64,000 bases of DNA from Microbotryomycetes sp. JL201 (taxonomy: Eukaryota > Basidiomycota > Microbotryomycetes): the NCBI GenBank assembly GCA_033819885.1, contig JAQYUZ010000014.1, forward strand, positions 62,001 through 126,000, given 5' to 3'. How positions within the stretch are numbered: position 1 is the stretch's first letter; each line of letters opens with the position of its first letter. The translations under genes were made by a program, and so were the position numbers. Under the pieces are notes generated by a model, which was not told the DNA's origin, did not search any database, and saw only the letters and a program-made list of their open reading frames with translations. Positions 58,449 through 62,390 of the stretch are shown in pieces.

Positions 58449-59878
58449 CTACAACAAAGCTTCGTCGTGCAAAAGACCACGCTCTTGCATCAAAGCAGAC
58501 GGAGCGCTGCCCGACTTTGCCAAGTACCTGCACTCGTCGATGAACGAAGTAAACATGTGAATCGTGTCGAGAGGTCCGCCAGCAGACTCGGGGTGGAATT
58601 GGACACCCCAGACCCGCTTGCCACTCGCTTCGGTCGACTTGATGCCTTCCACGGACGCATCACTGAAACATAACCACACGATAAGCGATGCGCAGAAAAA
58701 AGGTCTCCTGGCTACACCACTCACTTGGCATTAATGAAAAACGGCTCCCATCCTTTCGGGAAGGGGTCCACGAGCTCGAGAGCATATTGGTCTGCAACAC
58801 GTCACAACGTAAGCGGACACCCAAAATTCACGCATAACAGCGGCCTACGGTTCTGCGACGTCACATAGACGCGTCCAGCCTTGATCAAACCCGAGTTGGC
58901 GAGTGCGAGAACGGGCTGGTTGTGGCCGCGGTTGCCGAACCTCATGCGGTACGCCTCGAGGCCGGCCGCAAGACCGATAACTTGATGACCCATGCAGATA
59001 CCGAACACGGGCTTGTTCCATTCGTTGATCGTCTTGCGAACGTTGACAGCGGCCTCCATGCAATGCTTCGGATCGCCAGGGCCGTTCGACAGGAACAAGC
59101 CGTCGAAATCATCACGGACTTTGTTGAAGTCGTAGTTCCATGGGAAAACCGTAACGGCGGCGCCACGGCGAGTCAGCGAGCGGATAATGTTGGCTTTTGC
59201 GCCAAAGTCGAGCAAAGCGATCTTGATGTCACCATCCGGGTTGAGAGTATAAATCTCCTTTGTCGACACTTGGTCGACCAAGTTTTCCGTTGCGGGATCC
59301 CAATACTCCGATGCGGCCGGTGCAACGTCATGACCGTCGCCTGTCGCAAGCTTGGACAGAGTTGAGCCCTTATTGCGCAAAATTTGCGTGATGGCGCGTG
59401 TGTCGACACCCGTGATACCAGGCACGTTGTGTCGGGCGCACCATTCGTGGAGCGACTCAATCGCCTGGTAGTGCGAGTACTTTTCGGCAAGGTCGCTGAC
59501 AACGACGCCGGCGCACTGAACTCCGTTTGACTCGAGTACGACGGGTGGTCCGTTTTGTTCGACAACTGCAGCGTTGTCGGGCACGCCGTAATTACCAATC
59601 ATGGGCGTCGTGAACACAATAAATTGGGAGCGGTACGAGGGGTCCGTCATTGACTCTGTGTAAGACGTGATTGAAGTGGAAAAGACGGATTCGCCAAAGC
59701 GCGAGATGGGCGCGCCAAATGCCTTGCCAGTGAAGCTCTCGCCTGTCTTGAGATGGAGAGTTGCTGGCCTGCTGGGGTCGAACGGCGCGGCGGGGTGTGT
59801 GCCTGCGACGGTCGCGAGTGAGCGCGCGCGCAGGCTTGCTCGAGCGAGCGGTGCCCAGCGGGAGTGCAATGCGAGCAT
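58449..59878 (-). CDS. CPA1: Carbamoyl-phosphate synthetase, arginine-specific small subunit (glutaminase)
   Basis: CPA1 releases ammonia from glutamine and passes it to the large subunit to make carbamoyl phosphate for arginine. Start MLALHSRWAPLARASLRARS is an Arg/Ala/Leu-rich mitochondrial presequence, as in filamentous fungi. The N-terminal CPS domain is HLKTGESFTGKAFGAPISRF, QFIVFTTPMIGNYGVPDNAA, then HNVPGITGVDTRAITQILRN. The class I glutaminase domain has LFLSNGPGDPKHCMEAAVNV, the nucleophile Cys in VFGICMGHQVIGLAAG, and the His-Glu of VWGVQFHPESAGGPLDT. All catalytic residues are present. Two short introns near the 3' end. The first 1.0 kb is one exon. The leader carries a candidate arginine attenuator peptide (see that entry). 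Its product feeds OTC at 47-49 kb. Confidence 0.97.
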
Positions 59879-59936
59879 AGCTTTGAAGAGGGTTATAGAG
59901 TTGATTAGAGTTGATTCGATAAAGGTGGCGACGCGT

Positions 59937-60042
59937 CTAGACGTGCTTGACAGACTTGAAAATTACCGTGTCCAGGTAATCAATGCGGGTCTGTTGGATG
60001 GTCACGTCAGCGTCAAGGCGCACGACGACAAGACGCAACCAT
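59937..60042 (-). promoter_or_regulatory. Candidate arginine attenuator peptide uORF in the CPA1 leader
   Basis: Fungal CPA1/arg-2 mRNAs carry an upstream peptide that stalls ribosomes when arginine is high; known ones contain TSQDYLSDHLWRALNA (Neurospora) or TCQDYISDHIWKTSSH (yeast). Here the minus strand at 59990-59937 reads TRIDYLDTVIFKSVKHV then stop, 58 nt before the CPA1 start. It shares T-x-x-D-Y-L, and the rest changes conservatively (L/I, W/F, R/K, A/S, L/V), with nearly the same distance to the stop. The frame has no ATG of its own, but a CAACAG acceptor sits just before it, and an ATG at 60042 could be joined through a 49 bp intron (60039-59991, CTGAC branch site). The donor GTTGCG is poor, and the usually critical Trp is Phe. 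Confidence 0.5.
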
Positions 60043-60535
60043 CTGGACGCAGACAGACAAAAACGAGAAACGCACCTCTGAGCCGTTGTATCCGGCCAGC
60101 CTGCGTGTGCGCGTGTTGCCCGTTAGCTTGTGTTCGTCACGGCGATGAGAAAAAGCGCGCTCGCGCCGGCGACTCACATCCAAAAAAGCTGACGGGTGGC
60201 AAGTGAAGGTTATACGAAAGCTGTGAGCAGTCTCCGGGTGCGCGAGCGGGGCCCTGGCGAACGCTGAGAGGTCTGATCGTTAGGAAGAAAAAGGGCCAGG
60301 CGGGCGGTTGAGTCAATCGGCGGCACGCGCCCCGAAATATCACTGCTGTCGACTTCCAAAATCGCGCAATCTATGATAGATAGGAACAAGAAGCTTGACG
60401 TTTGAATCTTGAATTTATCGTGATGTGATACCCATCGTTGCGGCCGGGAAACCGACTCGATTCTGGCATTCCGCGCTACACCGGCAACAGCGGATGGCAA
60501 GCGAGCGAGCTCATGACGTTTAACACGTACTGACA
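60043..60535. promoter_or_regulatory. Divergent promoter, CPA1 / 5MP
   Basis: About 490 bp between the CPA1 leader and the 5MP start. The CPA1 leader probably extends into it (acceptor-like CGTCCAG just before the ATG at 60042 and GTGAGT at about 60174-60179 suggest a leader intron). ATG-TGA at about 60177 would be a minimal uORF if unspliced. Confidence 0.4.
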
Positions 60536-62390
60536 ATGTCTGTCCTGCCAGAACACACCTCCATTGTCGGCGAACGGCCAGAAAGATTTGAAGCCCAGTC
60601 TCGGTGAGCACACTTGTGCATCATTGACATGCGACGGTATGTGTGCACGACTGACGACTGAGCTGGTCATGCTTCGCAGTCGGCGTCCGCAACAAGCAGG
60701 TCAGCAGGCTCGCGCGCACGGACGCGCCTGCGCTCGTCGTCACGCGACCCTGACACAACTCGCGTGCAGCGCAAAGGCGTTCAGAAAGCTCAGGCAAAGT
60801 TTGAACCGCAAGCATTCCGAGACCAACTGCTCAAGCACCTCGAGTCGACGCCGCAAGACTTTGATGCCATCGCAGCTAAATTAGAATCGTTGGGCAATCA
60901 AGTCCGTCACCTCGCAACTGCACTCGCGTTTCGAGTCGCAGATATTGACTTTCGCTTCAATGTTATTCCTTCAGCTCGACTACCACAAATATGACCAACA
61001 ATTGTTCGAGCTCTTGCTCGTCGGAGGCTTGCTCGCACCCGGTGGCGGTCTCGTCGACGATGACGCTCCGAAGAGCACGTTCTCAGTCATTGACTCGGCC
61101 TCGTCACCGGTTGATATGGCCGAGATGAAAAAAATCGTCGAGGTGTTCAACAAACTGATCCGCAGGCAAGCATGGAAGTGTTTCCGTCGTCCGGCACCCC
61201 TGCTAACGTTGCGCGCGCGGCTGCACGTTGCAGGTATAAGTATCTTCAGAAACCATTTGAAGAGTCTGCCTTGCGCGACCTCCTGCAATTTGCCAACAAA
61301 TTCGCTCTGCCAGACCAGGAAAAGCTTGCCGCGGCGACGGCCTTGTTCGTCTCGACCGGTCTGATCACCTCGAGCGTACTGCTCGGCCTCAAAAAGGACC
61401 ACCTCACGAAGGATGGTGCGTCGATCAGGAAACGCGCTCTGGCTCATCAGCTCGCTTACATTTGACGACCGTCCTGCAAAGGCACGTCTTCGACTTTCAT
61501 CACGAATTATTGCAAAGCTTACCTTCAATCCGAGTCTGTTGAGCATTTGTCGACGACATTGCGCAAGGGCGGCGTCACCGACTTCGAGGCATTCTTCCCG
61601 GGTTCCAAACAGAACGCTGCAGACCTGTCAGCTCACTTCCGTGCGGCCGGCTTGTCGCCCGTCGTCGACGTGTACCTCAAGCAGAAAGGTGCTCAAGCAA
61701 AAGACGATTTGCTGGCGAGGCTGAAAGAGTTTGTGGCGGAAGAAGCCGATTTCGACGAGGCAAGGCGCCGTGCTGTACAATGTCGAGCACGAGGTCCTTA
61801 CAATCATTATTCGGATGCAGATTTTGTCGTACCTCAAGATTGTTTTCAAACGTGGACTGATCGCTGAACCTGACTTTGTGTCGATCACGTGGACGGGATT
61901 GATGTCGAGCTTGGACATGACGGCCAGACCGGATCAGCTGCCGGACATGGCCGTCAAAGAGGTGCAAACGATCAGCCCGCTTCTCGAACCCTTTTGTACA
62001 AAGCCAGCCACCGAAGTGGCTCTGATGTAGGCGCTAGATCTCCCGGCCGTTTGCCTGTTCAAAGTTGACATGCCCTGCACAAACAGCAACACGATTCAAA
62101 TCTGGTCGTACGAAAACACGAAAGTCATGCCCGCATTCGTCAAGATTCTCAAAGTAAGTTGCCCTCGCCCGATGCAGCGCCTTTGACGCTCATGTCTCTG
62201 ATCCCCGCTGACTACTCTGCCTGTCCAGGTCTTGTATTCGAAGGACGTCTTGTCTGATCAAGCTATCATTTACTGGCATGGCAAAGGCGCAAAGCCTCAG
62301 GCCAAGCAGCATTTCTTGACGGCAGCATTGCCTTTGGTCAATTTCCTGAGAGCGCAAGAGGATGACAGTGACGACGATGATGATGAATAA
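60536..62390 (+). CDS. eIF5-mimic protein 5MP (BZW1/2, W2 domain)
   Basis: 5MP proteins resemble the C-terminal half of eIF5, bind eIF2 and eIF3, and tighten start-codon selection. Exon 1 reads MSVLPEHTSIVGERPERFEA, close to the usual P..RFDP..F start. Next come AKFEPQAFRDQLLKHLESTP, FELLLVGGLLAPGGGLVDDD, LRDLLQFANKFALPDQEKLA, and FFPGSKQNAADLSAHFRAAG with VDVYLKQKGAQAKDDLLARL. The W2 domain follows, with NTIQIWSYENTKVMPAFVKI and LSDQAIIYWHGKGAKPQAKQ, then HFLTAALPLVNFLRAQEDDS and an acidic end DDDDDE. IIYWHGKGAKPQGKQ and the closing acidic AA-box are diagnostic. At least nine introns. The gene is missing from budding and fission yeast but kept in basidiomycetes. Confidence 0.93.

Follow-up and report, generated by a model that had tools for sequence, protein, structure and literature searches.

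In Neurospora crassa, the nascent arginine attenuator peptide (AAP) stalls the ribosome at the stop codon of its upstream open reading frame (uORF) when arginine is high, and Asp12, Tyr13, position 14 and Trp19 are named as critical residues, according to the passages of the review PMC3130931 that concern this peptide; position 14 is printed there as Lys, but it is Leu in PDB entry 2xl1. In Cryptococcus, the CPA1 homologue CND01050 carries an AAP uORF that ribosomes occupy strongly and that is sensitive to nonsense-mediated decay (NMD), and its mRNA rises 5-fold without Upf1, as stated in the relevant excerpts of Wallace 2020 (PMC7049704). The uORF of Toxoplasma gondii ApiAT1 encodes an AAP-like peptide that responds to arginine and has an essential Asp, and in the excerpts of that study the likeness to the AAP is presented by the authors as possible convergence (PMC8370653). 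No intron-split AAP uORF and no Phe variant was met in the titles, abstract openings and passages searched, and literal AAP strings used as a literature query retrieved no paper.

The locus compared here with these systems lies in a 64,000-nt stretch of DNA, called the window below. CPA1, assigned through Pfam as the small subunit of arginine-specific carbamoyl-phosphate synthase, occupies 58449-59878 on the minus strand and starts at ATG 59878; it has three exons (59878-58849, 58791-58725 and 58662-58449), and the spliced protein of 436 aa matches CPSase_sm_chain (143.6 bits) and GATase (150.1 bits, profile positions 2-189 of 190). A BZW/5MP gene lies next to it in divergent orientation (Pfam HEAT_5MP1_2, 270 bits; W2, 63 bits). 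Other genes of the window carry the Pfam domains TRP, Rax2, Mmc1 and SCA7, a set that agrees with a fungal source, Rax2, Mmc1 and the TRP family found here being fungal families. The abundance of short introns, together with the BZW gene, would point to a basidiomycete. A prokaryote collection yielded at least 582 relatives of CPA1; the 80 kept were bacterial or archaeal records and none was used, and no relatives were found among viral contigs. On the plus strand, a 180-residue stop-to-stop frame (59664-60206) runs antisense to the CPA1 start and leader and is probably a shadow frame. Between BZW and CPA1, upstream of the leader introns predicted below, there is a TGACTCA on the minus strand (60309-60315), presumably a Gcn4/Cpc1-type site; its presence alone is weak evidence, because chance would give 12.4 TGASTCA in the window, which has six.

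A first-pass annotation of this DNA had placed an AAP-like frame just before CPA1 on the correct strand, and this was borne out: CPA1 is confirmed by Pfam, and TRIDYLDTVIFKSVKHV, followed by TAG (59939-59937), lies at 59990-59937 on the minus strand and ends 58 nt upstream of the CPA1 ATG. The spacer between the uORF stop and the CPA1 AUG (59879-59936, minus strand) is G-poor, with 5 G in 58 nt. Read without splicing, the core frame has no start codon, since its upstream reading meets a TAA at 60125 with no ATG between. Two leader introns are predicted on the minus strand: intron 1 at 60101-60177 (77 nt, GAT/GTGAGT..CTAAC..ACGCAG/GCT), with the donor hexamer of a CPA1 coding intron, and intron 2 at 59991-60075 (85 nt, GAG/GTGCGT..CTGAC..CAACAG/ACC), with consensus at all three signals and the donor hexamer of an intron in the neighbouring BZW gene. 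Their removal would join the AT that ends leader exon 1 (60178-60179, minus strand) to the first G of a predicted 25-nt micro-exon (60076-60100, minus strand; spliced translation LAGYNGSE), giving the uORF AUG, and the micro-exon in turn to the third uORF exon (59937-59990, minus strand), which holds the AAP-like core and the stop. The spliced leader would then read ..TTTTTTGGAT/G CTG GCC.. and encode a 26-codon uORF, MLAGYNGSETRIDYLDTVIFKSVKHV followed by the stop. By this predicted splicing the AUG context is TTTTGGAUGC, with T at -3, a weak context of the leaky-scanning type. With both introns removed, this AUG is the only upstream AUG from 60330 down to CPA1; further up, ATGs lie at 60435 and 60469. 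In the unspliced RNA, the future uORF AUG is directly followed by UGA (60179-60174, minus strand), so that the pair forms a minimal start-stop element, AUG-UGA.

It is proposed, with a probability of roughly 0.7 as judged from sequence, that MLAGYNGSETRIDYLDTVIFKSVKHV is a divergent AAP-type arrest peptide, encoded by a spliced 26-codon uORF and lowering CPA1 translation at high arginine. Transcription would begin upstream of about 60180, the two leader introns would be removed, and AT and G would be joined into the uORF AUG. The weak context would let many scanning ribosomes reach the CPA1 AUG, while the ribosomes that initiate at the uORF would make the peptide and, at high arginine, stall once the stop codon occupies the A site. 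As in the known AAP mechanism, the stalled ribosome would block those that follow and expose the mRNA to NMD; at low arginine the stall would be relieved and CPA1 made. The same action as in the AAP and AAP-like cases of N. crassa, Cryptococcus and Toxoplasma is presumed at this locus.

For the comparison of whole peptides, the letters of the N. crassa AAP were taken from 2xl1, and the sequence used for the S. cerevisiae AAP matches 2xl1 at E=0.001 (phmmer). Against this yeast AAP, MLAGYNGSETRIDYLDTVIFKSVKHV aligns Met to Met with no internal gap and with 8 of 25 residues identical (M1, N6, T10, D13, Y14, I19, K21 and H25); in the same layout it shares 5 residues with the N. crassa AAP, and the N. 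crassa and yeast AAPs share 10. The alignment scores are 23 against the yeast AAP and 13, with gaps needed, against that of N. crassa, and among 20,000 shuffled peptides these scores were matched by 0.1% (yeast), 1.6% (N. crassa) and 0.175% (better of the two). Among controls from the window, 264 ATG ORFs (18-35 codons) gave one with a score of at least 23 and 2,091 pre-stop tails gave two. Without the spliced N-terminus, the tail of the core frame reaches only 17, a score attained by 13 of the 2,091 tails when it is counted among them, so that the whole-peptide signal owes much to the splice model. A phmmer search of the 26-mer against PDB at E<=10 returned no match, AAP entry 2xl1 included.

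At the level of residues, Asp-Tyr-Leu is kept as D13-Y14-L15 in register with the yeast AAP, the critical Trp is not kept, with Phe at the aligned position, and the Gln before Asp and the Ser-Asp-His after Leu are absent, I standing before D and D-T-V after L. By predicted splicing the uORF has 26 codons, against 24-25 in known AAPs, and its peptide is one residue longer than the yeast AAP, with 5 residues after the core against 4. Under the two-intron splice model, the earlier view of this peptide as AAP-like gains from its registering with the yeast AAP all the way from Met to H25, and the claim that T-x-x-D-Y-L is kept stands, but other parts hold only partly or are not supported. The distance to the stop was said to equal that of known AAPs, and it is 5 residues after the core against 4 in both N. 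crassa and S. cerevisiae; the later changes were said to be conservative, which is true of L to I, W to F and R to K and not of Q to I, D to T, H to V and S to R; and the ATG was supplied by a different intron from those favoured here.

These differences bear on a reading given a small chance, in which a genuine, translated spliced uORF has lost its arginine sensing and works only as a constitutive uORF whose sequence does not matter, or is an AAP in decay. The Phe at the position of Trp19, named as critical in the passages cited from PMC3130931, and the lack of Gln before Asp and of S-D-H after Leu speak for it, and MLAGYNGSETRIDYLDTVIFKSVKHV does not recover the known AAP with phmmer. Against it, T, D, Y, I and K and the AUG all stand in the exact register of the yeast AAP, with the stop within one codon, and such selective keeping is not expected of a decayed peptide. 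What is kept in MLAGYNGSETRIDYLDTVIFKSVKHV amounts to Asp, Tyr, the following Leu, an aromatic residue at the Trp position and a basic residue next to it. The peptide appears AAP-like in design and is filed as a candidate of a divergent AAP type and not as a canonical AAP, because the Trp, Gln and Ser-Asp-His common to the two known AAPs are absent.

Reading the whole window in all six frames gives a single instance of the pattern T-x-x-D-Y-[LI]-x4-[WFY]-[KR]. The 12-residue core scores 19 (BLOSUM62) against the N. crassa AAP and 20 against that of S. cerevisiae, and no better AAP core exists elsewhere in the CPA1 leader, where the runner-up scores 12 against 20. The core alone is not remarkable, because a score of 20 with no condition on the stop is reached when the 322-nt leader is shuffled by dinucleotides, in 216 of 4,000 shuffles, and in 60 of 792 real 322-nt segments of the window. 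When an in-frame stop 3-7 codons later is added, 24 of the 4,000 shuffles remain, and so do 9 of the 792 real segments, which overlap and hold five distinct peptides, TRIDYLDTVIFKSVKHV among them. With the intron places fixed and the exons shuffled 200,000 times, an in-frame ATG arises in 22.7% of cases and an ATG 5-13 codons before the Thr in 6.2%. A reading in which the two leader introns are present for another role, and the frame and its D-Y-L are coincidental, could draw on those 24 shuffles, on the four other window peptides and on the 6.2% of shuffles with an AUG in range. It is nonetheless judged unlikely: the two rates combined come to about 4 in 10,000 if they are independent, and CPA1 is the gene where an AAP-type peptide is expected in fungi, an expectation that is in part general background and in part that of the papers cited at the outset.

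The introns of the leader were judged against nine reference introns, two in CPA1 and seven in BZW, placed by eye through the protein that their removal restores; eight of the nine lie inside a Pfam match of the joined protein, one of these eight, the BZW intron at 60700-60769, being at its very edge. They measure 57-76 nt, have G at donor position +5 in 9 of 9 cases, and include both GTGAGT and GTGCGT among their donors. The BZW intron at 60604-60679 and one edge of a 20-nt micro-exon rest on the expected form of BZW N-termini, and the placement covers BZW outside its first exon and the region near 61760. This probable micro-exon (60680-60699, plus strand) lies between the introns at 60604-60679 and 60700-60769 and, given its presence, micro-exons may be common in this genome. 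BZW also has a GC-AG intron at 61166-61233 (plus strand; CAG/GCAAGC..CTAAC..CAG), and its frame breaks at about 61755-61775 (plus strand), where the frame changes with no evident intron, by an assembly error or a real frameshift. Two other approaches to the splice signals were set aside: an EM self-trained splice model, which picked 9 introns with no usable donor consensus, was abandoned, and a looser scan for introns joining ORFs, whose 168 candidates were only slightly enriched at the donor (6 had GTRNGT, or 3.6%, the background being 2.3%, and 60 had G at +5), was replaced by the introns placed through protein homology.

The leader donors had been noticed by eye ahead of scoring. Between 60500 and 59876 there are 108 candidate GT-AG introns of 42-120 nt, and three of them share the top consensus score of 9.1, namely 60177-60101, 60075-59991 and 60177-60078, the last of which would reduce the exon ahead of the next donor to 2 nt. 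A single long intron, 60177-59991, was dropped because no upstream AUG remains. With a consensus intron defined as GTRNGT, CTRAC and YAG over 45-110 nt, the two strands of the window together have 23 donor-acceptor pairs, and the leader introns are an adjacent two of them. Two non-overlapping consensus introns within the 322-nt leader were seen in 0 of 20,000 shuffles, and at least one in 410 of 20,000; among 792 real 322-nt segments of the window, 26 have at least one and a single segment, that covering the CPA1 leader, has two.

This pair also weighs on the idea that CPA1 transcription starts downstream of 59990, which would put the uORF and the leader introns outside the mRNA. Leaders are often G-poor, as are the 58 nt before the CPA1 ATG. 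Cryptococcus leaders, moreover, have a median of 105 nt in the excerpts of PMC7049704. Such a start would leave the consensus intron pair, absent from all 20,000 shuffles, unexplained, and it is considered very improbable. The intron of the first-pass annotation (49 nt, 60039-59991, ATG/GTTGCG), which would join ATG 60042 to the core as MTRIDYLDTVIFKSVKHV and which differs on splicing only and not on the arrest mechanism, is in frame and shares its branch and acceptor with leader intron 2, but it was rejected on donor and length and is scarcely credible, since its poor donor has C at +5, where all 9 placed introns have G, its 49 nt compare with 57-76 nt in those introns, it scores 4.8 against 9.1 for the best leader introns, ATG 60042 sits inside the better-scoring intron 60075-59991, and the AUG-UGA at 60179 would come before it. 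On these sequence features the pair 60177-60101 and 60075-59991 fits better. The odds behind the wording for the preferred reading and its four rivals are rounded, and the 49-nt model overlaps the preferred reading on mechanism.

The AAP-type reading with a spliced uORF has a further, doubtful extension, in which the uORF AUG exists only after splicing, so that arginine feedback on CPA1 would be gated by splicing of the leader, and arrest would tolerate Phe at the position of the critical Trp. Among the predicted isoforms, retention of intron 1 turns the start into AUG-UGA, an unrelated peptide, MLAGYNGSEVRFSFLSVCVQMVASCRRAP, results when intron 2 is retained, and skipping of the 25-nt micro-exon leaves no uORF, from which constitutive CPA1 would follow. 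If the AAP-type reading is right, the peptide would be a natural variant, with the critical Trp and S-D-H replaced, of a eukaryotic arrest peptide that senses a metabolite and has been studied well, in which the residues needed by the ribosome, T..DY[LI]....[LI]-aromatic-basic, could be told apart from those merely inherited. A start codon assembled by splicing would put arginine feedback under splicing control, and such uORFs would escape scans of unspliced leaders.

Known AAPs have a weak AUG context, and the predicted context of the candidate is weak like those of N. crassa and S. cerevisiae. As with the N. crassa arg-2 AAP (PDB 2xl1) and the S. cerevisiae CPA1 AAP, the candidate belongs to the same gene, in a short uORF ending a few codons past the core; the three have T-x-x-D-Y-[LI]-x-x-x-[LI]-aromatic-basic in common, and the candidate has 9 residues before the Thr, as in the yeast AAP. 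The AAPs of N. crassa and yeast share a Gln before Asp and a Ser-Asp-His after Leu/Ile, whereas the candidate lacks that Gln, has D-T-V for S-D-H and Phe for Trp, and carries one more residue after the core. Unlike both, its AUG and peptide are predicted to be joined from three exons. The T. gondii ApiAT1 peptide differs in having 33 residues and in standing before an arginine transporter of an apicomplexan, as given in the excerpts of PMC8370653. The uORF of Cryptococcus CND01050, likened here by its description in excerpts of PMC7049704 and not by peptide letters, is similarly of AAP type and lies in the CPA1 leader of a fungus that is likewise a basidiomycete.
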